Assembly: GCF_000177335.1 (NCBI RefSeq)
Contig: NZ_ADFP01000084.1
Span: 1 to 50,003, forward strand
DNA from: Pyramidobacter piscolens W5455
GTDB lineage: Bacteria; Synergistota; Synergistia; Synergistales; Dethiosulfovibrionaceae
DNA: 50,003 bases
Direction of reading: 5' to 3'
Part shown: piece after piece, positions 4,783-19,389 of the stretch
Numbering within the stretch: the stretch's first letter is position 1
Layout: the number at the start of each line of letters is the position of its first letter
The notes under the pieces: generated by a model
Database searches by the model: none
What the model was told of the DNA's origin: nothing
The model's input: the letters and a program-made list of their open reading frames with translations, nothing else
Position numbers and translations under genes: made by a program

Positions 4783-4857
4783 GGGCGGTTAGCTCAGCGG
4801 AAGAGCGCCTGCCTTACAAGCAGGTGGTCACAGGTTCGATCCCTGTATCGCCCACCA
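4783..4857 (+). tRNA. tRNA-Val (anticodon TAC)
   Basis: Acceptor GGGCGGT/ATCGCCC, anticodon stem CCTGC/GCAGG with loop CTTACAA, T-loop GGTTCGATCC, encoded CCA. First of six tRNAs. Confidence 0.97.
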
Positions 4858-4864
4858 TCCAAAC

Positions 4865-4941
4865 GGGGTTGTAGCTCAGTCGGTTAGAGCGTCGGCCTGT
4901 CACGCCGAAGGTCGAGAGTTCGAGTCTCTTCAGCCCCGCCA
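4865..4941 (+). tRNA. tRNA-Asp (anticodon GTC)
   Basis: Acceptor GGGGTTG/CAGCCCC, anticodon loop CTGTCAC, T-arm with GTTCGAGTC, discriminator G, encoded CCA. Confidence 0.97.
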
Positions 4942-4946
4942 TGCAC

Positions 4947-5022
4947 GGCGAGATAGCTCAGTTGGTAGAGCAGGGGACTGAAAATCCCCGTGTCCCCAGT
5001 CCGATTCTGGGTCTCGCCACCA
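4947..5022 (+). tRNA. tRNA-Phe (anticodon GAA)
   Basis: Acceptor GGCGAGA/TCTCGCC, anticodon stem GGGGA/TCCCC with loop CTGAAAA, encoded CCA. Confidence 0.97.
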
Positions 5023-5028
5023 TCCGAT

Positions 5029-5103
5029 GCGGAAGTAGCTCAGGGGTAGAGCACAACCTTGCCAAGGTTGGGGTCGCGGGTTCAAATCCCGTCTTCCGCT
5101 CCA
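5029..5103 (+). tRNA. tRNA-Gly (anticodon GCC)
   Basis: Acceptor GCGGAAG/CTTCCGC, anticodon stem CAACC/GGTTG with loop TTGCCAA, discriminator T, encoded CCA. Confidence 0.97.
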
Positions 5104-5122
5104 TTTTCGACGTGAAGAGACC

Positions 5123-5196
5123 GGCGGCATAGCCAAGTGGTAAGGCAGAGGACTGCAAATCCTTTATCCCCAGTTCGAATCTGGGTGCCGCCTCCA
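5123..5196 (+). tRNA. tRNA-Cys (anticodon GCA)
   Basis: Acceptor GGCGGCA/TGCCGCC, anticodon loop CTGCAAA, T-loop GTTCGAATC, discriminator T, encoded CCA. Confidence 0.97.
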
Positions 5197-5202
5197 TAAA
5201 AT

Positions 5203-5278
5203 TCCTCGATAGCTCAGTCGGCAGAGCGGGTGACTGTTAATCACTAGGTCGCAGGTTCAAGTCCTGCTCGAGGAGCCA
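5203..5278 (+). tRNA. tRNA-Asn (anticodon GTT)
   Basis: Acceptor TCCTCGA/TCGAGGA, anticodon stem GTGA/TCAC with loop CTGTTAA, discriminator G, encoded CCA. Last tRNA of the array; a terminator follows. Confidence 0.96.
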
Positions 5279-6349: not shown

Positions 6350-7177
6350 ATGATGTTCATGAACAGGAAACTGTTGGTCGCTCTGACGGCTGTCGTGACG
6401 ACGATTTTGGGCGCCGTCGCCTTCGCCGCGGAAGACAAGGTGATCCGCGTGGCGACGCCTGGAACTTACGCGCCCTTTACTATGTATGATGATGCTACGA
6501 AGGAATGGTCTGGTTTTGAAATTGAATTGTGGCGAGCGATTGGAAAAAGATTTGGTTACGATGTTGAGTTTTTGAGGTTCGACATCCCCGCCACTTTTGC
6601 CGAGCTCGATCTTGGCCGGGTCGATACGGTTGCCAAGCAGATCAGCATCACGCCGGCGCGCCAGCAGAAATATGACTTTTCGCGGCCGTTTTTCTTCAGC
6701 CCATACTTTCTGACCGTGGCCGAATCCAATGAAGAGATCAAATCGTGGAAGGATATGGCGGGGAAAACGATCGCGCTGGCTGAGGGAAGCGCTATGAACG
6801 AGTTTGTCGCGGCGCTGGATCCCGACAACAAGGTGAAAAAATTTGTGTACGAGTCCGATAAGAAGATTTTCTCCGAAGTGTCGGTCGGACGTATCGACGC
6901 CTGCCCTAGCGCGTTTATCGAGCTGCCTTACGAACTAAAGCGAAATCCCGCGCTCAAGCTGAAGTTTGTCGATCTGGACAATCCCATCTACACCGAAGTC
7001 AACGCCTACCCGTTCGCCCGCACCGAGCGAGGGCAGGCGCTTCTGAAGCTGGCAAACGAAGCTCTGACTCAGATGATTGACGACGGCAGCTATGCCGGGC
7101 TGTGCAAAAAATGGTTCGGCGTGGACGTGATGGAAACGAAACCGGCCAAGGACTACCAGGCTGCTCATTCGAAGTAG
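6350..7177 (+). CDS. Amino-acid ABC transporter substrate-binding protein (second copy)
   Basis: A 275-residue paralogue of the preceding protein, alignable over its whole length with long identical stretches (KVIRVATPG, SGFEIELWR, TVAKQISITPAR, EGSAMNEFVAALDPDNKVKK). It has a signal peptide (about residues 1-26). Three in-frame ATGs (6350, 6353, 6359) are candidates; AGAAGGGA upstream best fits 6353. Codon use shifts to A/T-ending codons at about 6478-6585, unlike the rest of the gene and the first copy. Tandem copies suggest two ligand specificities served by one permease. Confidence 0.92.
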   Translation: MMFMNRKLLVALTAVVTTILGAVAFAAEDKVIRVATPGTYAPFTMYDDATKEWSGFEIELWRAIGKRFGYDVEFLRFDIPATFAELDLGRVDTVAKQISITPARQQKYDFSRPFFFSPYFLTVAESNEEIKSWKDMAGKTIALAEGSAMNEFVAALDPDNKVKKFVYESDKKIFSEVSVGRIDACPSAFIELPYELKRNPALKLKFVDLDNPIYTEVNAYPFARTERGQALLKLANEALTQMIDDGSYAGLCKKWFGVDVMETKPAKDYQAAHSK

Positions 7178-7205
7178 CGTTTTCGTAAAAGATTGTTCCC
7201 GGACG

Positions 7206-7245
7206 ATGCGGCAGGCATTCTGAAAAATGACGCCTGCCGCATTTT
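7206..7245 (+). terminator. Intercistronic hairpin between binding protein and permease genes
   Basis: ATGCGGCAGGC/GCCTGCCGCAT, an 11-bp perfect stem with a 15-base loop followed by TTTT. It lies in the 100-base gap of an operon, so partial termination or mRNA protection would give more binding protein than membrane components. Confidence 0.65.
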
Positions 7246-7276
7246 GGCGGTTTATCGAAAAGAGGGGAAAGCGCGC

Positions 7277-7957
7277 ATGGTTTTTCAGTTCGACTATTTT
7301 TTACGGATGTTCACCATCATCTTTTCGGGATTCAAAAACACGGTTTCGATGGCGTTCGTCTCGCTCATTTTCGCGGTGCTGCTCGGCTTTGTCCTGGCGG
7401 CGTCGCGATACTACAATATTCCCGTGCTGAAGCAGTTTTCCGTCGTGTTCACGTCGTTTTTCCGCAGCACGCCCTTCATCGCGCAGCTCTTCGTCTTTTA
7501 TTACGGCTTTGCGCAGATCTCCGCGGCCGTCAGGGGGCTGTCCAGCTTCTGGGCGGTCGTCATCGTGCTCTCGCTCAGTTTCGCAGCCTACATGGGCGAG
7601 AACATCCGCGGCGCGATCAGTTCGGTGGACAAAGGGCAGTTCGAAGCGGGAATCTCCATCGGCATGACGCCGTGGCAGACGATCCGCCGCATCGTGATCC
7701 CTCAGGCGGCCCGCGTCGCCGTGCCGGGCATGGTCAATTCGTTCGCCAACCTGTTCAAGTCCACGTCGCTGGCCTTCACCGTCGGCGTGATGGACATGAC
7801 GTCGTGCGCCAAAAACGAGGTCAACCTGACGTACCGCTATCTGGAAGGATTCATCGCCCTGCTGATCATCTACTGGGTCATCCTCGCCCTCGTCTCCTAC
7901 GCCCAGTCGCTGCTGGAGCGCTACATGAACAGGCCCTACGTGCAGGAGGGGCGGTAG
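7277..7957 (+). CDS. Amino-acid ABC transporter permease
   Basis: A 226-residue HisM/GlnP-type inner-membrane permease. About five transmembrane helices are visible, with the EAA-loop EAGISIGMTPWQTIRRIVIPQA at about residues 128-149. ATG 7277 is chosen from GAGGGG about 10 bases upstream and from family length; an upstream TTG at 7193 would add an unlikely N terminus that reads through the hairpin. The gene ends directly against the ATPase gene. Confidence 0.93.
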   Translation: MVFQFDYFLRMFTIIFSGFKNTVSMAFVSLIFAVLLGFVLAASRYYNIPVLKQFSVVFTSFFRSTPFIAQLFVFYYGFAQISAAVRGLSSFWAVVIVLSLSFAAYMGENIRGAISSVDKGQFEAGISIGMTPWQTIRRIVIPQAARVAVPGMVNSFANLFKSTSLAFTVGVMDMTSCAKNEVNLTYRYLEGFIALLIIYWVILALVSYAQSLLERYMNRPYVQEGR

Positions 7958-8704
7958 ATGAGCCGGCTGCCCATATTGACGGTCTCCGGGCTGAAAAAAA
8001 GCTTCGGCGCGCTCGAGGTCCTGAAGGACGTCAGTCTTTCGGTCGCAGAGGGCGAGATCATCTCGATCATCGGCCCTTCGGGAACGGGTAAATCCACCCT
8101 GCTGCGATGCGTCAACTATCTGGAACGTCCCACCGCGGGAGTGATCGCCATCGATGGCGTCAGCGTGGACGCTTCCCGGAGCCGCCGCAGGGACGTTTAC
8201 GCGCTGCGCAGGAAGGCCGCGATGGTCTTCCAGAACTACAACCTGTTCCGCAACAAGACGGCGCTTGAAAACATCATGGAACCCATGACGCAGGTGCAGA
8301 AGATTCCCTGCGGCGAGGCCAGGGAAGAGGCTGAGAGGATCTTGAAGGTCATCGGACTGTTCGAGAAGCGCGACGTCTATCCGGCCCACCTGTCGGGCGG
8401 ACAGCAGCAGCGGATCGGCATTGGCAGGGCCATGGCCGTCAGGCCCAGAGTCATGCTCTTCGACGAGCCCACTTCTTCCCTCGATCCCGAACTGGTCAAC
8501 GAGGTGCTGGAAGTCATCCGGCAGCTGGCCTCGGAGCATCGCATGACGATGCTCATCGTGACGCACGAAATGCGTTTCGCGCAGGAGATCTCGGACCGCG
8601 TCCTGTTCATGGACAACGGGGGAATCGCCCTTGAAGGAACTCCACAGGAGATCTTCGGCGGCGATAACCCGAGAGTGCGCAAGTTCGTAGGCTCCGTGGC
8701 CTGA
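7958..8704 (+). CDS. Amino-acid ABC transporter ATP-binding protein
   Basis: A 248-residue GlnQ/HisP-type ATPase. Walker A is GPSGTGKST at residues 39-47, the signature LSGGQQQR starts at about residue 145, Walker B is LFDEP with D169 and E170, and a switch histidine lies in the VTHEM motif. It energises the preceding permease. Start ATG 7958 directly follows the permease stop codon, so the two are translationally coupled. Confidence 0.95.
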
Positions 8705-8770
8705 GGCGCGCCGGTGTCAAGCGCAGCGCAAGTGTCGGGGGGCTTCCGCCGGGAGACGGGGCCTGACGGC

Positions 8771-9724
8771 ATGGACCGCAATTTCGTCGAGGCTGCGGCC
8801 CGGCTCAGAAAAGAGCTTTACAAAGAGTATGGCGCCTTTTACTACGTGCCGATGGCGGAATCCCGCTCCGTGCAGCTTCCCGTCACCGTGGGGTGCAGCT
8901 ACGGCCGCTGCCTTTTCTGCGACCTGAACCACGGGCTGGCCTACCGGGAGCTTTCCTGTCCGGAGATACGGGACAAGGTCGGGAAATTGCGTTTTCTCCA
9001 CAAATACGACCGCCGGCCCGTGCGGCGCTGTCTTTTGTCCGGAGGGAACCCATTCTTTTTGCCCGCGGAGAAACTGCTGTGGATCGCCGGGGAGCTGCGC
9101 GGCGCCTTTCCCGAGTGCGAGTCCGTCTCCTGCTTCGCGCGGGCGGACGACGTGATGAAAAAGTCGGCGGAGGAGCTTGAGACCCTGCACGCGGCCGGAT
9201 ATGACCGCCTGTGTCTGGGGATCGAGTCGGGGTCGGAGCGGGTGCTCCGCTATCACGAGAAGGGCGTGGGGCGCGCCGGGAACGCCGAGGCCATGAGGAA
9301 GCTCGACGCCGCCGGGATAAGCTATTCAGTCTACGTCATCCTGGGGCTGGGGGGACGGGCTCTTTCCGACGAGCACATTGCCGAGACGGCAAGCCTGCTG
9401 AACGGAGCGCGTCCCTTCGAGCTGACGGTGGTGAACCTGGTGCTGTTCAGGGGAGCTCGTCTGGCGGAGCGCGTGCGGGCGGGCGAGTTCAAACGGCTTC
9501 GGCCGCTCGAGGCTCTGGGCGAGGGGCGGCGTCTTCTCTCGCTGCTGGAGATACCGACTGTCTACGATGGGACCCACAAGACCAACGCCTTTCCGCTGAA
9601 GGGGCGTCTGCCGGAGCACAAGGCGCTCCTGCTGCGCCGGATGGACTGGGCCATCGAGCGTCTGAGCCGCGGGAACGTGCAGGGATACGAGATGCGAAGG
9701 TGGCGCAACTGGTTCACGGAGTGA
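8771..9724 (+). CDS. Radical SAM protein
   Basis: A 317-residue radical SAM enzyme. The cluster motif reads CSYGRCLFC (C-x4-C-x2-C), one residue longer in the first gap than the canonical C-x3-C-x2-C; this spacing is known from a subset of uncharacterised radical SAM proteins. A glycine-rich SAM-contacting strand (LSGGNPF) and the IESGSERVL segment follow. No extra cluster or B12 domain is seen, so the reaction is unknown. It begins shortly after the ABC ATPase gene and may be co-transcribed. GTG 8714 is an alternative start giving 336 residues; neither has a clear ribosome-binding site. Confidence 0.8.
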   Translation: MDRNFVEAAARLRKELYKEYGAFYYVPMAESRSVQLPVTVGCSYGRCLFCDLNHGLAYRELSCPEIRDKVGKLRFLHKYDRRPVRRCLLSGGNPFFLPAEKLLWIAGELRGAFPECESVSCFARADDVMKKSAEELETLHAAGYDRLCLGIESGSERVLRYHEKGVGRAGNAEAMRKLDAAGISYSVYVILGLGGRALSDEHIAETASLLNGARPFELTVVNLVLFRGARLAERVRAGEFKRLRPLEALGEGRRLLSLLEIPTVYDGTHKTNAFPLKGRLPEHKALLLRRMDWAIERLSRGNVQGYEMRRWRNWFTE

Positions 9725-11586: not shown

Positions 11587-12582
11587 TCAGCAGATTCGCG
11601 GCAGGATCTCGCCGACAGGCATGTCGACGATGCGGGAGCCGCCGAGCCGGGTCTTCAGCCCCACGAGTCCGGCATGTTCCGCCGTGACGGCGCCGATAAG
11701 GGCGGCGTCGCGCCCCAGCGGGTGACGGCGGAGCCGTGCGAGCGCGATTTCCGTTTCTGCCGGGGCGCAGGCGATCAGGGCGCAGCCTTCGCTGGCGAGG
11801 TAGAGCGGATCGAAACCGAGGATGTCGCAGATGGCGGCGACGGATGGATGGAGCGCGAGGCGTTCCTCTTCGATCTCCATGCCGAGGCCTGTGGCTTCGG
11901 CCCATTCGCAGAGCACGGTGCCGAGGCCGCCGCGCGTGCAGTCGCGCATGCAGCGCAGGCCGTCGAGCGGCAGCAGCGGTCCCAGCAGGGGCCAGAGGGC
12001 GGCGCAGTCGCTTTCCAGGCCGCCGCGGTCGAGCCCGTAGCGCAGCGCGGCGATGACCGCGCCGTGGCGGCCCGGCGGGGTGGAGAGAATCAACGCATCG
12101 CCGGGCTGCAGGCGGTTCATGCCCAGCGGCCGGGGCGTGACGGCACGGCCGAGGGCGGTGACGTTGAAAAATACGCCCTCGCAGGCGCCGCGAGGCACCA
12201 CTTTCGTGTCGCCGGCCGCCAGCGTCGCGCCGAGGGCTTCGCACTGCCGGGCGGCGCTCCGAACGAGGCGCAGCAATTCCGCGCGCGGCAGCCCTTCCTC
12301 GATGATCATGCCCAGCGTCAGCCACTGCGGCCTGACGCCGCGCACCGCCAGGTCGTTCGTGGCGCCGCAGACGGCCAGGTGTCCCATGTCGCCGCCGGGG
12401 AAAAACCGCGGCGAGACCGTGAAGCCGTCGGTGGTGACGGCCAGATTCCCTTCTATAAACGTGCAGTCTTCGCAGCCGCCTTTCTGGCCGTCGCAGGCGG
12501 CGAAGTTCTTTATCACGGAGGCGACGAGATCGGCCGTAAGGCGGCCGCCGCTTCCTTCGCCCAACGAGATCAGTTCGCTCAT
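11587..12582 (-). CDS. hypE: Hydrogenase maturation protein HypE
   Basis: A 331-residue PurM-like ATPase that dehydrates the C-terminal thiocarboxamide to thiocyanate for the CN ligands of NiFe hydrogenase. It starts with the glycine-rich GEGSGG segment (residues 8-13), has the GDTKVV motif, and ends in PRIC, the exact C-terminal cysteine tail that HypE uses as carrier. Start at 12582 is supported by GGGGAGGAAG just upstream and overlaps the hypD stop (ATGA). HypF, HypA and HypB are not in the window, and no hydrogenase structural gene is present. Confidence 0.96.
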   Translation of the reverse strand: MSELISLGEGSGGRLTADLVASVIKNFAACDGQKGGCEDCTFIEGNLAVTTDGFTVSPRFFPGGDMGHLAVCGATNDLAVRGVRPQWLTLGMIIEEGLPRAELLRLVRSAARQCEALGATLAAGDTKVVPRGACEGVFFNVTALGRAVTPRPLGMNRLQPGDALILSTPPGRHGAVIAALRYGLDRGGLESDCAALWPLLGPLLPLDGLRCMRDCTRGGLGTVLCEWAEATGLGMEIEEERLALHPSVAAICDILGFDPLYLASEGCALIACAPAETEIALARLRRHPLGRDAALIGAVTAEHAGLVGLKTRLGGSRIVDMPVGEILPRIC

Positions 12583-13661
12583 AGTCTTCCTCCCCGGCGG
12601 CCGTAACGGTACCACGCGCCGCAGCTTCCTTCCGACGAGACCATGCAGGGACCGGCGGGTTCCTGCGGCGTGCAGTTTTTTCCAAAAAGGGCGCACTGCG
12701 GCGGCGCGAGACGGCCGCGCAGCACCTCGCCGCAACGGCAGCCGGGAATGGGAACGTTGACGGCCGGCGGCAGCGCCAGCTTGGCGCGGGCGTCGCGACA
12801 CGCATAGGGCGCGCGCAATTTCAGCCCCGACTGCGGGATCGTCCCCAGCCCGCGCCAGACGCTGTCGCAGGGCGTAAAACATTCGTCGATCAACGCCCGG
12901 GCACGCGGATTGCCGCGATCGCGCACGCCGCTCGGATAGGCGTTGACGATGCGCGGTTCGCCGCCTACGATCTGCGAAAGCAGCGCGCACAGCGCCAACA
13001 GGATCTGCTCTCCTTCGAAGCCTCCCACGGCGCAGGCGACGCGGTACTTTTCGGCCAGGATCCCGTAAGGTTCCAGCCCGATGATGCTCGAGACGTGCCC
13101 CGGCAGCAGGAAACCCTTCACGCCGATCTGCGGGTCCTGCGCCAGCAGCTCGAGCGCGGGAAGGACCCTTTTATGCTCGGCCAGTACGGAAACGTTGCCG
13201 ACGCCGAGGCGTTTCGCTTCTTGAAGAAGCAGGGCCGTTTGCGGCGTGGTCGTCTCGAAGCCGATGGCGAAAAAAACGAATTCGCGCCGCGGCTCGCTCA
13301 GCGCCAGCGGGATCACGTCCATGGCGCTCATGACGACGCGCACGTCGCCGCCGCGGCCCGCCGCTTCGCGCAGCGAGCCGCCCCGTCCGGGAACGCGGAG
13401 CATGTCGCCGTAGCTGCACAGCGTCACGCCGGGAAGCGAGGCCGCCGCGATGGCCTGGTCGACGTCGGCCTGATCGGTGACGCAGACCGGGCAGCCGGGG
13501 CCGGAAAGCAGGGCGACGTCTTCCGGCAGCAGCGAACGCAGGCCGCTGCGGAAGATCGACACCGTGTGAGTGCCGCAGACTTCCATCAGCCTGACCGGGC
13601 CCGTGCGCCGGGCCAGTTCCGCCAGCGTCCGCGCGGCGCTAGAAAGGAAGCTGCCCTGCAT
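12579..13661 (-). CDS. hypD: Hydrogenase maturation protein HypD
   Basis: A 360-residue iron-sulfur scaffold on which the Fe(CN)2CO group is assembled with HypC and HypE. The hallmark motifs are present: EVCGTHT (about residues 25-31), SGPGCPVC (about 51-58), the central GFETTTP, and the C-terminal GRCRCGEVL and cysteine-rich region of the 4Fe-4S cluster. It overlaps hypC by 23 bases and hypE by 3 to 4 bases, so the three genes are translationally coupled. The start at 13661 follows the family N terminus. Confidence 0.95.
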   Translation of the reverse strand: MQGSFLSSAARTLAELARRTGPVRLMEVCGTHTVSIFRSGLRSLLPEDVALLSGPGCPVCVTDQADVDQAIAAASLPGVTLCSYGDMLRVPGRGGSLREAAGRGGDVRVVMSAMDVIPLALSEPRREFVFFAIGFETTTPQTALLLQEAKRLGVGNVSVLAEHKRVLPALELLAQDPQIGVKGFLLPGHVSSIIGLEPYGILAEKYRVACAVGGFEGEQILLALCALLSQIVGGEPRIVNAYPSGVRDRGNPRARALIDECFTPCDSVWRGLGTIPQSGLKLRAPYACRDARAKLALPPAVNVPIPGCRCGEVLRGRLAPPQCALFGKNCTPQEPAGPCMVSSEGSCGAWYRYGRRGGRL

Positions 13662-13884
13662 CGCCGGCGCCTTCCCGAATTTCGGCCCAGAGCGCTTCCA
13701 GTTCGGCGCCGTCGCGTTCGTCGACTTTTTCGATGGCGAAACCGGCGTGCACCAGCACGAGATCCCCAACGGCCGGCGCGTCCAGCAGGTCGACGCGGAT
13801 CGAACGGCGGATCGGGCCGGCCGAAGCGATCGCGCTGCCGTCGCCGCAAAGTTCTTCAATTCTGTGAGGCACTGCGAGACACAT
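13639..13884 (-). CDS. hypC: Hydrogenase maturation chaperone HypC
   Basis: An 81-residue HypC/HupF OB-fold chaperone. It begins MCLAVPHRI, with the essential Cys2 that binds the iron precursor, and has GDLVLVHAGFAIEKVDE (about residues 45-61), the family signature. GGGGGGCGG precedes the ATG. It heads the hypCDE operon, which is transcribed away from the divergent thioredoxin gene. Confidence 0.95.
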   Translation of the reverse strand: MCLAVPHRIEELCGDGSAIASAGPIRRSIRVDLLDAPAVGDLVLVHAGFAIEKVDERDGAELEALWAEIREGAGDAGQLPF

Positions 13885-14034
13885 CTGTCCGCCCCCCTTT
13901 TTCTGAGACTCTTCGTCAATTATACAACGGCGAAACGTTTTCGCCGCACGGCAGCCGCGTCCCGTCCGAAACGTTTTTCCAATTTGTTGCATGTTTGAAC
14001 TTTGAGACGTTTATATATTGTTCATTTTGCGTCA

Positions 14035-14123: not shown

Positions 14124-14450
14124 ATGGCAGTCGAACTTACGAAAGAGACGTATGAAGCGGCAATCGAAGCCAGCAAAAACAAACCCATGTTTATGGATTT
14201 CTGGGGCCCCAAGTGCACTCATTGCCTTGCCCTGATGCCCAGCGTCGAAGCTCTCGCCGAGAAATATGCCGACAAGGTCGATCTGTGCAAGGTCAACATC
14301 GCCGGCGGCCGCCGCGTCGCCATGGCCCTCAAGGTCATGAGCCTCCCTTCGTTCCTGTTCTTCAAGGACGGCGCCGAAGTGGCCCGTCTCAGCGGTGACA
14401 CGGTCACCATCGAGCAGATCGAAGAGAACGTCAAGAAGCTCTGCGAATAA
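14124..14450 (+). CDS. trxA: Thioredoxin with CTHC active site, probably serving glycine reductase
   Basis: A 108-residue single-domain thioredoxin. The active site reads W-G-P-K-C31-T-H-C34 instead of the canonical W-C-G-P-C, and the conserved cis-proline is in the LPSF segment. Thioredoxins of glycine-reductase organisms often have unusual active sites, and the gene sits directly before the glycine riboswitch and grd genes. It probably recycles the selenoprotein disulfide with TrxB (24.2 kb). It has its own promoter and terminator, so it can be made independently of the grd genes. A CAAGGAG site lies before ATG 14124. Confidence 0.9.
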   Translation: MAVELTKETYEAAIEASKNKPMFMDFWGPKCTHCLALMPSVEALAEKYADKVDLCKVNIAGGRRVAMALKVMSLPSFLFFKDGAEVARLSGDTVTIEQIEENVKKLCE

Positions 14451-14468: not shown

Positions 14469-14498
14469 AGCCCGCGCGGGAAAACGCGCGGGCTTTTG
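14469..14498 (+). terminator. Terminator after the thioredoxin gene
   Basis: AGCCCGCGCG/CGCGCGGGCT, a 10-bp G+C-rich stem with loop GGAAAA, then TTTT. Confidence 0.85.
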
Positions 14499-14759: not shown

Positions 14760-14787
14760 TTGATCTTTTTCTCGTTGGTTGTAAAAT
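14760..14787 (+). promoter_or_regulatory. Promoter of the grd operon
   Basis: TTGATC (14760-14765), a 16-base spacer and TAAAAT (14782-14787), with transcription expected to begin a few bases before the riboswitch. Confidence 0.7.
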
Positions 14788-14799
14788 GAACATGGCGAG

Positions 14800-14920
14800 A
14801 GAAATTCGGGAGAGAGATTCCGCCTCGTTTTATGAGGGGCGGACGCCGAAGGGGCAACGCAAAACGTTTTTTCATTGCGGAAACTCTCAGGCACAAAGGA
14901 TCCCGAGCGGACGCCGCTCT
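14800..14920 (+). ncRNA. Glycine riboswitch (single aptamer)
   Basis: The conserved blocks of the glycine (gcvT) aptamer occur in order: GGGAGAGA (14808-14815), GCCGAAGGGGCAA (14845-14857) and CTCTCAGGCACAAAGGA (14884-14900). P1 forms from TTCGGGA (14805-14811) and TCCCGAG (14901-14907). Only one aptamer is present. A small hairpin GAGCGG/CCGCTC (14905-14919) directly follows and shares bases with P1, as expected for a singlet switch with a vestigial partner. No terminator is seen before grdX, so control may act on translation. Glycine should turn on grd expression. Confidence 0.93.
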
Positions 14921-14976
14921 GAATATACGTGCAAATCGTACGACAGAGACTCATGACCACCAAAGAGGTGAGCGTG

Positions 14977-15366
14977 ATGCCCTGTCGCTTTATTTTGCTT
15001 ACGAACAATCCGCGCTATGAAGACCGCGCCGATTTGCCCGTGCGGTTCGTCGCCGGCGCCGGAAAAGACGTCATCGCGGCCGGGCGCGACCTGATCCACA
15101 AAGGATGGGCCCTGCAAAACCATCCTCTGTACGGCAACTTCCGTCCGCACCAGCAGCCGTTCCGCACGCTGTTGCTCAAAAAAGACGAAAACGCGGGTTT
15201 CGACGAATACGGCCTGGGTCTGATCGAAGAGGCCGGGCTCGTCTACGCGAACGATCCCCAGCCGCTGACGCCGGCGCAGACGCCGCCCCGGATGGCTGCG
15301 GACTGTTCCGAGATCGACTTCGAGCTGATGAAGGAGACGCTTCTCAAGAGCAATCTGATCCACTAG
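14977..15366 (+). CDS. grdX: GrdX family protein
   Basis: A 129-residue protein of the GrdX family, found next to glycine, sarcosine and betaine reductase genes; its biochemical role is unknown. The N-terminal LLTNNP motif (residues 6-11), the VRFVAGAGKDVIAAGRDLIH segment and the HPLYGNFRPHQQP loop match the family pattern. ATG 14977 is chosen because AGAGGTG lies six bases upstream; in-frame codons further upstream would run into the riboswitch. It is the first gene of the glycine-switched operon. Confidence 0.88.
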   Translation: MPCRFILLTNNPRYEDRADLPVRFVAGAGKDVIAAGRDLIHKGWALQNHPLYGNFRPHQQPFRTLLLKKDENAGFDEYGLGLIEEAGLVYANDPQPLTPAQTPPRMAADCSEIDFELMKETLLKSNLIH

Positions 15367-15523
15367 CGTTTTATCCGGGCACGGAGCGGTTCCCTCCGCT
15401 GGGCAGAGCGTGGAATCCCTTCTGGCCATGATCTAAACGATACAGGTACCGCGCGCCGCCGGATTTTCCGGCATCAGTGCCCCGAGGAGGGGCATGGGTA
15501 ACATTTAGAAGGGAGGAGTTATC

Positions 15524-16816
15524 TTGAAGCTTGAACTCCATAAGGTAAAGATTGACAAGATCGCGTTTGGGGAGGAATTCTCCGTCAAAGGCGGGGTGCT
15601 CACCATCAACAAGAAGGCCATCATCGACCATCTGATGGATGACGATCGTCTCGCCAGCGTCGATGTGGAACTGGCCCATCCGGGCGAGAAGACCCGCATC
15701 ATGCCCGTGAAGGACGTCGTCGAACCCCGCTGCAAGATCGAGGGGACCAACGAGGTGTTCCCCGGCATGATCGGCGACGTCGACACCGTCGGCGAAGGTT
15801 CCACGCTGGTCCTCGACGGCGCCGCCGTGGTCACCACCGGCCGCCTCATCGCCCCGCAGGAGGGCATCGTCGACATGTCCGGCCCCGGCGCCGAATTCAC
15901 GCCGTTCTCCAAGACCAAGAACATCGTTCTGGTCCTGAACCCCGTCGAGGGGCTCGAGAACCACAACCGTGAGACGAGCTGCCGCATGGCCGGCCTGAAG
16001 GCCGCCGTCTTCATCGCCCAGCAGATCAAGAAGGCCGGATTCACGGCCGACAAGGTCGAGAGCTATGAGGCTCCCTGCTACAAGGACGCCCTGGCCGCCT
16101 ATCCCGAGCTTCCCAAGGTCGTCTACATCTACATGCTGCAGACCCAGGGCCTGCTTCACGACACCTACGTCTACGGCGTCGACGCCAAGAAGATCATCCC
16201 CTCGGTGATCAACGCCACCGAAGTCATGGACGGCGCCATCTGCTCCGGCAACTGTGTGTCCGCCTGCGACAAGAACAGCACCTACGTGCATCTGAACAAC
16301 CCCATCATCAAGAGCCTTTACGAGCACCACGGCAAGGATCTGAACTTCATCGGCGTCGTCATCACCAACGAGAACGTGACGCTGGCCGACAAGAAGCGCA
16401 GCAGCTCCTACGCCGTCAAGCTGGCCCAGACTCTTGGCGCCGACGCGGCCGTCATCTCCGAGGAAGGCTTCGGCAATCCCGACGCCGACCTGGTCATGAA
16501 CTGCTGGAAGTGCGAGCGCAAGGGCATCAAGACGGTCCTCGTCACCGACGAGTACGCCAACCGCGACGGCGCCTCCCAGTCTCTGGCCGACACCTGCCCC
16601 GAGGGCAACGCCTGCGTCACCGCCGGCAACGCCAATGCCACCATCACCCTGCCTCCGATGGACAGAATCATCGGCGACACCCAGTTCGCCGACGTCATGG
16701 CGGGCGGTTTCTTCGGCTCGCTGAAGGAAGACGGCAGCATCTTCGCCGAGATCCAGATCATCACCGGCGCCACCAGTGAAGTCGGTTTCACCAAACTGGG
16801 CGCTTACACGATCTAG
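15524..16816 (+). CDS. grdE: Glycine/sarcosine/betaine reductase component B, proprotein (GrdE type)
   Basis: A 430-residue proprotein of the substrate-specific component B. In the known family it is cleaved at a conserved cysteine to give a pyruvoyl-bearing small subunit that forms a Schiff base with the substrate amine. Here the conserved segment AICSGNCVSACDKN has Asn243-Cys244, the likely cleavage pair. The start is TTG with GGGAGGAG at the right distance. The 157-base gap after grdX holds two short hairpins (around 15465 and 15478-15494). Glycine specificity is inferred from the riboswitch; sarcosine or betaine paralogues look alike. Confidence 0.93.
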   Translation: MKLELHKVKIDKIAFGEEFSVKGGVLTINKKAIIDHLMDDDRLASVDVELAHPGEKTRIMPVKDVVEPRCKIEGTNEVFPGMIGDVDTVGEGSTLVLDGAAVVTTGRLIAPQEGIVDMSGPGAEFTPFSKTKNIVLVLNPVEGLENHNRETSCRMAGLKAAVFIAQQIKKAGFTADKVESYEAPCYKDALAAYPELPKVVYIYMLQTQGLLHDTYVYGVDAKKIIPSVINATEVMDGAICSGNCVSACDKNSTYVHLNNPIIKSLYEHHGKDLNFIGVVITNENVTLADKKRSSSYAVKLAQTLGADAAVISEEGFGNPDADLVMNCWKCERKGIKTVLVTDEYANRDGASQSLADTCPEGNACVTAGNANATITLPPMDRIIGDTQFADVMAGGFFGSLKEDGSIFAEIQIITGATSEVGFTKLGAYTI

Positions 16817-16875
16817 TTCGCGGCCAAGACGCGCGATCCCTTTTGCCAGGGACAGACTCTTAAGGAGGGGAACTT

Positions 16876-18186
16876 ATGACTTATAAAGTAGTTCATTATA
16901 TCAACCAGTTCTTCGCCGGCATCGGCGGAGAAGAAAAGGCCGACATCGCGCCCGAAGTGCGCGAAGGCGTCGTCGGCCCCGGTATGGCTCTGAAGAACGC
17001 TTTCAAGGGCGAGGCCGAAATCGTCGCCACCATCATCTGCGGCGACTCCTATTTCGCCGAAAACATGGATGCCGCTTCCGACTTCGTGGTCGAGGCCGTG
17101 AAGAAGTACAACGCCGACGGCTTTGTCGCCGGCCCCGCCTTCAACGCCGGCCGTTACGGCACCGCCTGCGGCGCCGTCTGCAAGGCCGTGGGCGAGAAGC
17201 TGGGTATTCCCACCGTTTCCGCCATGTACGTCGAGAACCCCGGCGTCGATCTGTACAAGAAGTACACCTACATCGTCAGCGCCGCCGACAGCGCCCGCGG
17301 TCTGGGCAAGGCCGTGCCCGCCATGGCCAGCATCATCCTGCGCCAGATGAAGGGCGAAAAGCTCGGCACGCCCAAGGAAGAGGGCTACATCGAGCGCGGC
17401 GTGCGCGTCAACAAGTTCTACGACGAAGTCGGCGCCGAGCGCGCCGTGAAGATGCTGATCAGCAAACTCAAGGGCGAGGCGTTCGAGACTGAGTACGCCA
17501 TGCCCGTGTTCGACCGCGTCGAGCCCCGGCCGGCCCTCAAGGACGTCACCAAGGCCACGATCGCGCTGGTCACTTCTGGCGGCATCGTGCCCTTCGGCAA
17601 CCCCGACCACATCGCCGCCTCCAGCGCCCAGAACTACGGCGAGTACAGCATCGCCGGCGTCGATGACCTGAAAGAGGGCGAATATCAGACCGCTCACGGC
17701 GGCTACGATCAGACCTATGCCAATCAGGATCCCGACCGTGTCCTGCCCGTCGACGTGATGCGCAAGCTGGAGAAGGAACACAAGATCGGCAAGCTCTACG
17801 ATTATTTCTACGCCACCGTCGGCAACGGCACCGGCGTCGCCAACGCCAAGCGCTTCGGCACCGAAATCGGCAAGAAGCTGCACGGCAAAGTTGACGCCGT
17901 TATCCTCACCTCCACCTGAGGCACCTGCACTCGTTGCGGTGCAACGATGGTCAAAGCTATTGAGGAAAACGCCAACGTCCCCGTGGTTCACATGCTGACG
18001 ATCGTGCCGATCTCCCTGAGCGTCGGCGCCAACCGTCTGATCCCCACGGTCGCCATTCCTCACCCGCTCGGCAACCCCGCGCTGAAGCCCGAGGAGGAGT
18101 TCGCGCTCCGTTACCGCCTGGTCACCCGCGCCCTCAAGGCCCTGCAGACTCCCGTGACCGAGCAGACCGTTTTCACGGAGGACTAA
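16876..18186 (+). CDS. grdB: Glycine reductase component B selenoprotein (GrdB type), UGA read as selenocysteine
   Basis: A 436-residue selenoprotein read through an in-frame UGA at 17917-17919 (residue 348). The context is T-S-T-U-G-T-C-T-R-C-G-A-T-M, the U-x2-C-x2-C motif of GrdB, and the frame stays open to 18186 with strongly family-like sequence after the UGA. The selenol takes the carboxymethyl group from the substrate bound to the GrdE pyruvoyl and passes it to selenoprotein A. A hairpin of SECIS type begins 11 bases after the UGA. AAGGAGGGG precedes the ATG. It lies 59 bases after grdE; grdA, grdC and grdD are absent from the window. Confidence 0.95.
17931..17947 (+). promoter_or_regulatory. 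Bacterial SECIS element in grdB mRNA
   Basis: TCGTTGC/GCAACGA forms a 7-bp stem with a GGT apical loop, starting 11 bases after the UGA. That distance and the GGU in the loop match the upper stem of the E. coli fdhF SECIS, so SelB should be able to bind. Confidence 0.85.
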
Positions 18187-18221
18187 ACGCCTCTCGACGG
18201 TCGGAGAAATATTCGAAACCT

Positions 18222-18260
18222 AAAAAAGAACGCCTTTTTTGTGAAGGCGTCCTTTTTTTT
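18222..18260 (+). terminator. Terminator of the grd operon
   Basis: ACGCCTT/AAGGCGT stem flanked by A and T runs, ending in eight T. Confidence 0.85.
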
Positions 18261-18327
18261 ATGAGCGAATATGGATATAATATGAAAAAGATCGGGGATT
18301 TTTATTTTCTGAGAAGGGGTGCGAAAG

Positions 18328-19389
18328 TTGAAAGATCTCAAAATCCTAACGGGGTGTGTCGCCGTACTGACCGTGATTGCCGTGGGGGTCGTGCTTCAGG
18401 CGGCGCAAAACGTCTTTCTGCCTCTGGTGATCGCCTGGATCATTTCATATATGATGGCGCCGGGCGTGCGTTTCATGACGCGCCTGAAGGTACCGGTCGA
18501 AATAACCACGTTTCTGCTGCTGGCGCTGCTGCTGTACATCACGTCGCAGGCGGGCAGTTTCCTGAGCCAGCTGTTCGCCGGTTCGGCCGACAAGTTCATG
18601 AACTATTACGAACAGCTCGTCGCCATCTGGAACCAATTCTCGGCCAAATACAACATCACCGCCACCTATCTGCGGGGCGTGGATTGGGGGGGAGCCCTGC
18701 GCTCCTACATCATCGCGCTGTCGGGTTCGATCGTGACGATCCTGTCCAAGACGGTGATGGTGATCGTCTTTCTGATGTTCATCCTCTTCGGCAGTCCCTA
18801 CGTGGAGTATAAAATGCGCAAGGCGTTCCCGCAGAAGAGCGCTCAGGTCATGAACATTCTCGATTCGATCTCGACGCAGATCGGCCGTTTCCTTTCGGTG
18901 ATGACGCTGATCAGCGGCGCGACGGGGATCCTGATCTGGCTGGGGCTGAGCTGGATCGGCGTCGATTTCGCGCCGACGTGGGGCGTGCTGGCGTTTTTCC
19001 TGAACTTCATTCCCACGGTCGGCTCAATCGTCGCTTCGGTCCCGCCGATCCTGATTTCGATCGTACAGTTTTACCCCGCGGCGGCCAGCGCTGTGTTCGG
19101 CATTCCGCCGCAGGTCTTTATGACGATCGGCGTGATCCTGGCGGTGCAGGTGACGATCGGCAACATCATCACGCCCAAGGTGATGGGCGACAGCATGAAT
19201 CTCAGCCCGGTCATGATCCTGGTTTCGCTGCTGCTCTGGGGCTGGCTCTGGGGCGTGGCGGGGGCGCTGCTCTCCATGCCGATCGCCGGCATCATCAAGA
19301 TCATCTGCGACAACGTCGATCAGCTGAAGATGGTCGGCGTGCTGATGAGTTCCGGCCAGTCTTTTGAAAGAGAGTTCAAGTCCGAATAG
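18328..19389 (+). CDS. AI-2E family (PerM-type) membrane protein
   Basis: A 353-residue integral membrane protein of the AI-2E/PerM family. Seven to eight hydrophobic helices are visible, with the family segments FFLNFIPTVGSIVASVPP (near residue 228) and GNIITPKVMGDSMNLSPVMILVSLLLWGWLWGVAGALLSMP (about 280-320). Family members have been linked to autoinducer-2 export or sodium/proton exchange; the substrate here is unknown. TTG 18328 is preferred, as AGAAGGGG lies 8 bases upstream; GTG 18319 abuts that site and is less likely. Confidence 0.88.
   Translation: MKDLKILTGCVAVLTVIAVGVVLQAAQNVFLPLVIAWIISYMMAPGVRFMTRLKVPVEITTFLLLALLLYITSQAGSFLSQLFAGSADKFMNYYEQLVAIWNQFSAKYNITATYLRGVDWGGALRSYIIALSGSIVTILSKTVMVIVFLMFILFGSPYVEYKMRKAFPQKSAQVMNILDSISTQIGRFLSVMTLISGATGILIWLGLSWIGVDFAPTWGVLAFFLNFIPTVGSIVASVPPILISIVQFYPAAASAVFGIPPQVFMTIGVILAVQVTIGNIITPKVMGDSMNLSPVMILVSLLLWGWLWGVAGALLSMPIAGIIKIICDNVDQLKMVGVLMSSGQSFEREFKSE

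Follow-up and report, generated by a model that had tools for sequence, protein, structure and literature searches.

The glycine reductase system of Pyramidobacter piscolens W5455 is divided between unlinked loci, and one of these lies behind a glycine riboswitch. We analysed a 50,003-nucleotide stretch of this genome, hereafter the window, in which the riboswitch precedes the genes grdX, grdE and grdB. Our interpretation is that a glycine-responsive leader controls the glycine-specific part of the reductase, and that components A and C/D, encoded elsewhere, serve four different B modules. We put the probability of this at about 85%. Our comparisons show the sequence elements, the genes present, their unlinkage, how far the arrangement is conserved and the direction in which it has changed.

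Amino acid-fermenting anaerobes, including fluoroacetate-destroying rumen strains, gain ATP with glycine reductase. GrdB and GrdE bind glycine and release ammonia, passing the carboxymethyl group to the selenoprotein GrdA. GrdC and GrdD then release the GrdA-bound carboxymethyl group as acetyl phosphate. In the proposed mechanism, a leader RNA with one glycine aptamer, a K-turn-type leader/linker pairing and a ghost P1 helix would control production of GrdX (accessory), GrdE (a pyruvoyl proprotein) and the selenoprotein GrdB. The ancestral single operon has been dismantled in the genus, with grdA and grdC-grdD now at two other loci.

A component B operon with its own terminator

The initial annotation placed a promoter, a riboswitch, grdX-grdE-grdB and a terminator between positions 14760 and 18260. 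Model matches and scans confirm each element, and the coordinates proved correct. All three genes are on the plus strand. The first, grdX (14977-15366), matches NF038093 with 81.8 bits (cut-off 40). Next, grdE (15524-16816; PF09338, 662.9 bits) encodes the component B proprotein from a TTG start; the nearest named records are from Pyramidobacter sp. C12-8 (97%) and two Pyramidobacter MAGs (91%). The component B selenoprotein is encoded by grdB (16876-18186), assigned by its tree position and by TIGR01917 (652 bits, cut-off 602). An in-frame TGA, at 17917-17919, specifies selenocysteine in the motif TSTUGTCTRCG. Directly 3' of this UGA is a bacterial SECIS element (SECIS_4, RF01990; 17920-17957, plus strand; 60.6 bits, gathering score 38). 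A GrdE-family protein is thus paired with a GrdB that exceeds the glycine cut-off and has both UGA and SECIS, as expected for component B of glycine reductase.

That the operon could instead encode component B of sarcosine reductase (GrdG/GrdF) is very improbable. The top raw scores do come from NF040793 and NF040794, but these values (577 and 667 bits) fall below the respective cut-offs of 780 and 800, whereas the glycine model TIGR01917 is above its own. Furthermore, the window GrdB groups with GrdBs of complete riboswitch-bearing grd operons, apart from the sarcosine-type clade represented on contig C14 of the same genome.

As originally proposed, the operon ends after grdB. An intrinsic terminator occupies 18230-18260 on the plus strand (stem 18230-18250 plus a T-run), followed by a gene for an AI-2E-type transporter at about 18319-19389. 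Downstream of grdB, grdA, grdC and grdD are absent; all three are on other contigs, so that this is not a complete glycine reductase operon. A grdA remnant between grdE and grdB is excluded because the gap is only about 60 bases.

Just 5' of the riboswitch, trxA (14124-14450, plus strand) is a separate transcription unit. It encodes a thioredoxin with active site KCTHC (PF00085; NF047697 115.7 bits, short of the cut-off of 140). An inverted repeat 3' of trxA, at 14469-14494 (10 pairs, 9 of them G-C), is a candidate trxA terminator; note that the terminator scan lists it for the minus strand only and that the plus-strand reading is by eye. The grd-linked trxA of most other families is part of the operon and separates grdX from grdE. 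On the minus strand, divergent from and 5' of trxA, are hyp-like genes (11587-13992), with HypC, HypD and HypE recognised by eye in the translations. Elsewhere in the window there is a cluster of six tRNA genes (4783-5275), with an L10 leader upstream at 2555-2719.

The leader RNA and the likely mode of control

Transcription probably starts from a sigma-70-type promoter, TTGATC-16-TAAAAT (14760-14787, plus strand), detected by pattern scan at a position conserved in leaders. By itself the match is weak, with 1 found and 1.1 expected. However, 32 of 33 leaders of the order, the window's own included, have a comparable -35/-10 pair no more than 60 bases 5' of the aptamer, compared to 6.3 expected from shuffles.

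The glycine aptamer and its leader/linker pairing extend from 14795 to 14913 on the plus strand, as defined by RF00504, RF03166 and covarying helices. RF00504 itself matches 14799-14913 (plus strand) with 54.1 bits (gathering score 32, E 1.9e-8). This is the sole match genome-wide; hence, no second RF00504 aptamer that might control grdA or grdC was found. The RF03166 model (glycine-GGAnGA), which includes the P1 of a second aptamer, aligns at 14795-14950 with 58.9 bits, below its gathering score of 110. This alignment, together with the leaders of family f1, delineates a ghost of the second aptamer at 14917-14950 (plus strand), with P1 helix CUCUG/CAGAG. The helix is invariant in 12 family-f1 leaders. 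Given only the alignment of these 12, RNAalifold recovers the aptamer helices, the leader/linker pairing and the ghost P1 helix. Compensatory changes occur in 9 of the 28 pairs.

A single aptamer, followed by the remnant P1 of a second, is the arrangement of type-1 singleton glycine riboswitches, 93% of which precede glycine-cleavage genes (PMC6944388). Our leader has this 3' remnant. However, the published examples are mostly at glycine-cleavage genes, and the main text of that paper does not refer to a reductase, whereas here the RNA precedes a glycine reductase operon. By eye, a longer sequence separates the two P1 strands in several other families and resembles a full second aptamer. In two genomes, RF00504 matches a second time, immediately adjacent to the first. 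Since longer, second aptamer-like sequence occupies the ghost position in other families, comparison of the leaders suggests that the window leader is a reduced tandem and, in the terms of PMC6944388, a type-1 singleton.

Directly 3' of the ghost P1, a predicted hairpin (14952-14979, plus strand) pairs the grdX Shine-Dalgarno sequence (AGAGGUGA, 14964-14971). Its folding z-score is -3.2 in the window, between -2.9 and -4.1 across the genus, and -1.8 on average over 30 leaders. The stem sequence differs between genera but pairing is maintained; leaders of genus g5 do not have the hairpin. The plus-strand scan found no terminator-like site separating the aptamer from grdX, and we therefore rejected a transcription-terminator platform. 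Because the Shine-Dalgarno hairpin is present, and no terminator-like site precedes grdX, control at grdX translation is most likely.

We infer, from the aptamer sequence, that the RNA binds glycine and that the operon is under direct glycine control. The sense of the switch is harder to deduce. Folding models predict the Shine-Dalgarno hairpin in free, aptamer-folded and aptamer-plus-ghost states alike. We found no clean switching fold, since there is no mutually exclusive pairing. With the hairpin predicted in every state, and absent from genus g5, an ON switch is presumed by analogy with Clostridioides difficile. In that organism the grd operon has a glycine riboswitch and glycine raises grd transcription (PMC11477304).

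An alternative, which we consider unlikely, is that the RNA acts as an OFF switch, or is a relic that has lost its switching. The compatibility of the Shine-Dalgarno hairpin with a folded aptamer fits such an explanation, as do the RF00504 scores of Pyramidobacter leaders, which are among the lowest for first aptamers of the relatives compared. In addition, one close genus (g3) has the operon without a detectable riboswitch. Conversely, across the family the core of the aptamer, its leader/linker pairing and the ghost P1 either do not vary or covary, and the C. difficile response, at an operon that also bears a riboswitch, is an increase (PMC11477304). By this analogy, the leader would be an ON switch, acting most likely on grdX translation.

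Placement of glycine aptamer RNA before grdX and glycine reductase genes is shared with C. difficile, where the riboswitch is upstream of the grd operon (PMC11477304, PMC10880999). There, a single operon contains trxA and trxB as well as grdABCDEX; in the window, the leader is followed by grdX-grdE-grdB only, and trxA is a separate upstream unit.

Unlinked A and C components and four B modules

The initial annotation inferred that component B is unlinked from the A and C parts, and suggested searching the genome for the remainder of the system. That search located grdA, grdC, grdD, selA, selB, tRNA-Sec and three further GrdE/GrdB-type modules. The assembly is a draft of 140 contigs. Single copies were found of grdA, on contig C92 (PF04723; NF040748 258.8 bits, cut-off 130), grdC (C47:24090-25517) and grdD (C47:25632-26771). 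The selenocysteine machinery includes selA and selB, together on C71, and tRNA-Sec on C51; four more large ORFs near selAB were checked, and none is selD. As judged from grdA, grdC, grdD, selA, selB and tRNA-Sec, the genome as a whole does encode a complete glycine reductase system.

With 140 contigs, one might suspect that the split is an artefact of draft assembly, or a rearrangement in one strain, and that grdA, grdC and grdD really belong to the same transcript. We regard this as extremely improbable, and reject an assembly artefact on the evidence of a near-closed relative, G005 (two contigs). A single 2.78-Mb contig of G005 carries grdA (413.3 kb), the riboswitch (735.7 kb) and grdC (1158.2 kb). 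Hence, grdA is about 320 kb, and grdC about 420 kb, from the riboswitch. The order trxA, riboswitch, grdX, grdE, grdB is identical in all six genomes of the genus, which, G005 included, keep the loci apart. The terminator 3' of grdB also argues against a longer transcript. The worry about rearrangement, raised in the initial annotation, can thus be set aside.

Beside the glycine module of the window, the genome has B modules on contigs C14, C91 and C11. The C14 module gives sarcosine-type scores and includes a second grdX, the gene for an SLC6-type symporter and a divergent CdaR/PucR-type regulator. On C91, betaine-type GrdH scores accompany a BCCT transporter and a two-component system (histidine kinase/LuxR pair). 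These substrates, sarcosine-type and betaine-type, are putative, being assigned from family scores below the curated cut-offs and from the neighbouring transporters. The C11 module is fluoroacetate-type, with FarE (937.8 bits, cut-off 675), a UGA-containing GrdB, and TetR and GntR-type regulators.

In the stretches read around the C14, C91 and C11 modules, no own grdA, grdC or grdD was found close by. Because these genes are single-copy, and no module has its own copies nearby, a single A and a single C set would have to be shared by all four. Gene content therefore supports a single A and C set common to all four, as the initial annotation had anticipated for other component B variants.

In addition to these features, the second GrdX-family protein (C14, 4631-5089; 92.5 bits) is encoded between the grdB-like gene and the sodium symporter gene. 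To our knowledge, GrdX has no known function. On C11, an orphan GrdB-type C-terminal half (7117-7938), in which cysteine replaces selenocysteine (STCGTSTRCG), lies just 5' of farE and the UGA-containing GrdB gene; G004 and G005 have similar partial matches. The FarE gene, at 8116-9384, scores well above the cut-off, and a lactate permease gene and the TetR and GntR-type regulator genes are nearby. Since FarE exceeds its cut-off, and the nearest named relative is the fluoroacetate-degrading C12-8, the window strain may also degrade fluoroacetate.

A broader proposal, which we advance tentatively and think rather less probable than not, is that selection has repeatedly converted a reductase operon under glycine control into a hub-and-spoke layout. 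The hub, outside riboswitch control, would consist of the single-copy A and C/D genes. The B modules would be spokes with their own sensors (riboswitch, CdaR/PucR, two-component system, TetR/GntR) and, in some cases, a transporter, and the Stickland acceptor would be chosen via B expression only. Should glycine not control the A/C hub, and each B module have its own sensor, expression of B would decide which substrate is reduced. Competition for one GrdA would then be a possible limit, under which glycine or betaine, for example, might lower fluoroacetate breakdown.

Repeated loss of the single operon in related genomes

We mapped seven proteins on the loci of related genomes. In 17 genomes, from several other families, grdC-grdD are within the riboswitch operon; 15 of these also have grdA there, and two (G017, G026) do not. 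The complete layout is riboswitch-grdX-trxA-grdE-grdA-grdB-grdC-grdD. Sister genus g2 has a unit that reads trxA, riboswitch, grdX, grdE, grdA, grdB. Sister genus g3, represented by G007, has the same genes in the same order (trxA-grdX-grdE-grdA-grdB) and no glycine riboswitch was detected at its grd operon (G007:C1, 9500-10800), even at E up to 1. In Pyramidobacter, grdA is also missing from the riboswitch unit. The arrangement in genus g5 (family f3) is riboswitch-grdX-grdE-grdB, and in three genomes trxA-grdA-grdC(-grdD) form a cluster of their own; in G015, of the same genus, the trxA-grdA-grdC cluster is split further. The riboswitch units of G027 and G033 are likewise without grdA.

Riboswitch-associated GrdBs fall together in the GrdB tree (86% SH-aLRT), apart from betaine-, sarcosine- and FarB-type proteins. 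On this tree, which was built by a quick search on one gene and stands in for a species tree, the presence of grdA in the unit requires at least five changes. Taken together, the gene orders show the complete operon to be the ancestral state. Repeated dismantling within one order offers a natural comparison of operon and hub layouts.

Where operons are split, the aptamer is found with grdX-grdE-grdB. We found no case of an aptamer with grdA, grdC or grdD alone, in a comparison that sets aside the second copies in G006, G008 and G010, contig C63 of G033, and G042. G011 has no riboswitch match, but its grdE starts only 348 bases from the end of its contig, which makes the absence uninformative.

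A glycine riboswitch on grd genes (PMC11477304, PMC10880999) and a shared A/C set (PMC10838667) both have precedents, and the window operon is a known system in rearranged form. According to PMC10838667, many bacteria have several B complexes that supply one common reductase system, and P. piscolens has a far operon. Our system resembles the one set out there for Cloacibacillus porcorum MFA1 and P. piscolens, with substrate-specific B modules, a proposed common A and C, and a far operon in the genus. However, its text does not mention a riboswitch, and we saw no treatment in it of splitting of the glycine operon. Distribution across the Synergistales, and repeated dismantling, look unreported. 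Our literature search found no account of a grd riboswitch in Synergistota or of repeated operon break-up; note that it left subscription journals mostly uncovered and is weak evidence of novelty.

The solitary grdA may be a gene that moved, or one left when an operon copy was lost after duplication. Their positions give no support to a common origin of the family's solitary grdA genes, as this genus and the sister genera share no flanks. More than one grdA is present in 1 of 12 split genomes, compared with 10 of 16 that have grdA in the unit (Fisher p 0.006, uncorrected for kinship). In a sister genus, a second glycine aptamer (G008 6536-6626, with equivalents in G006 and G010) lies about 2 kb 3' of grdB.
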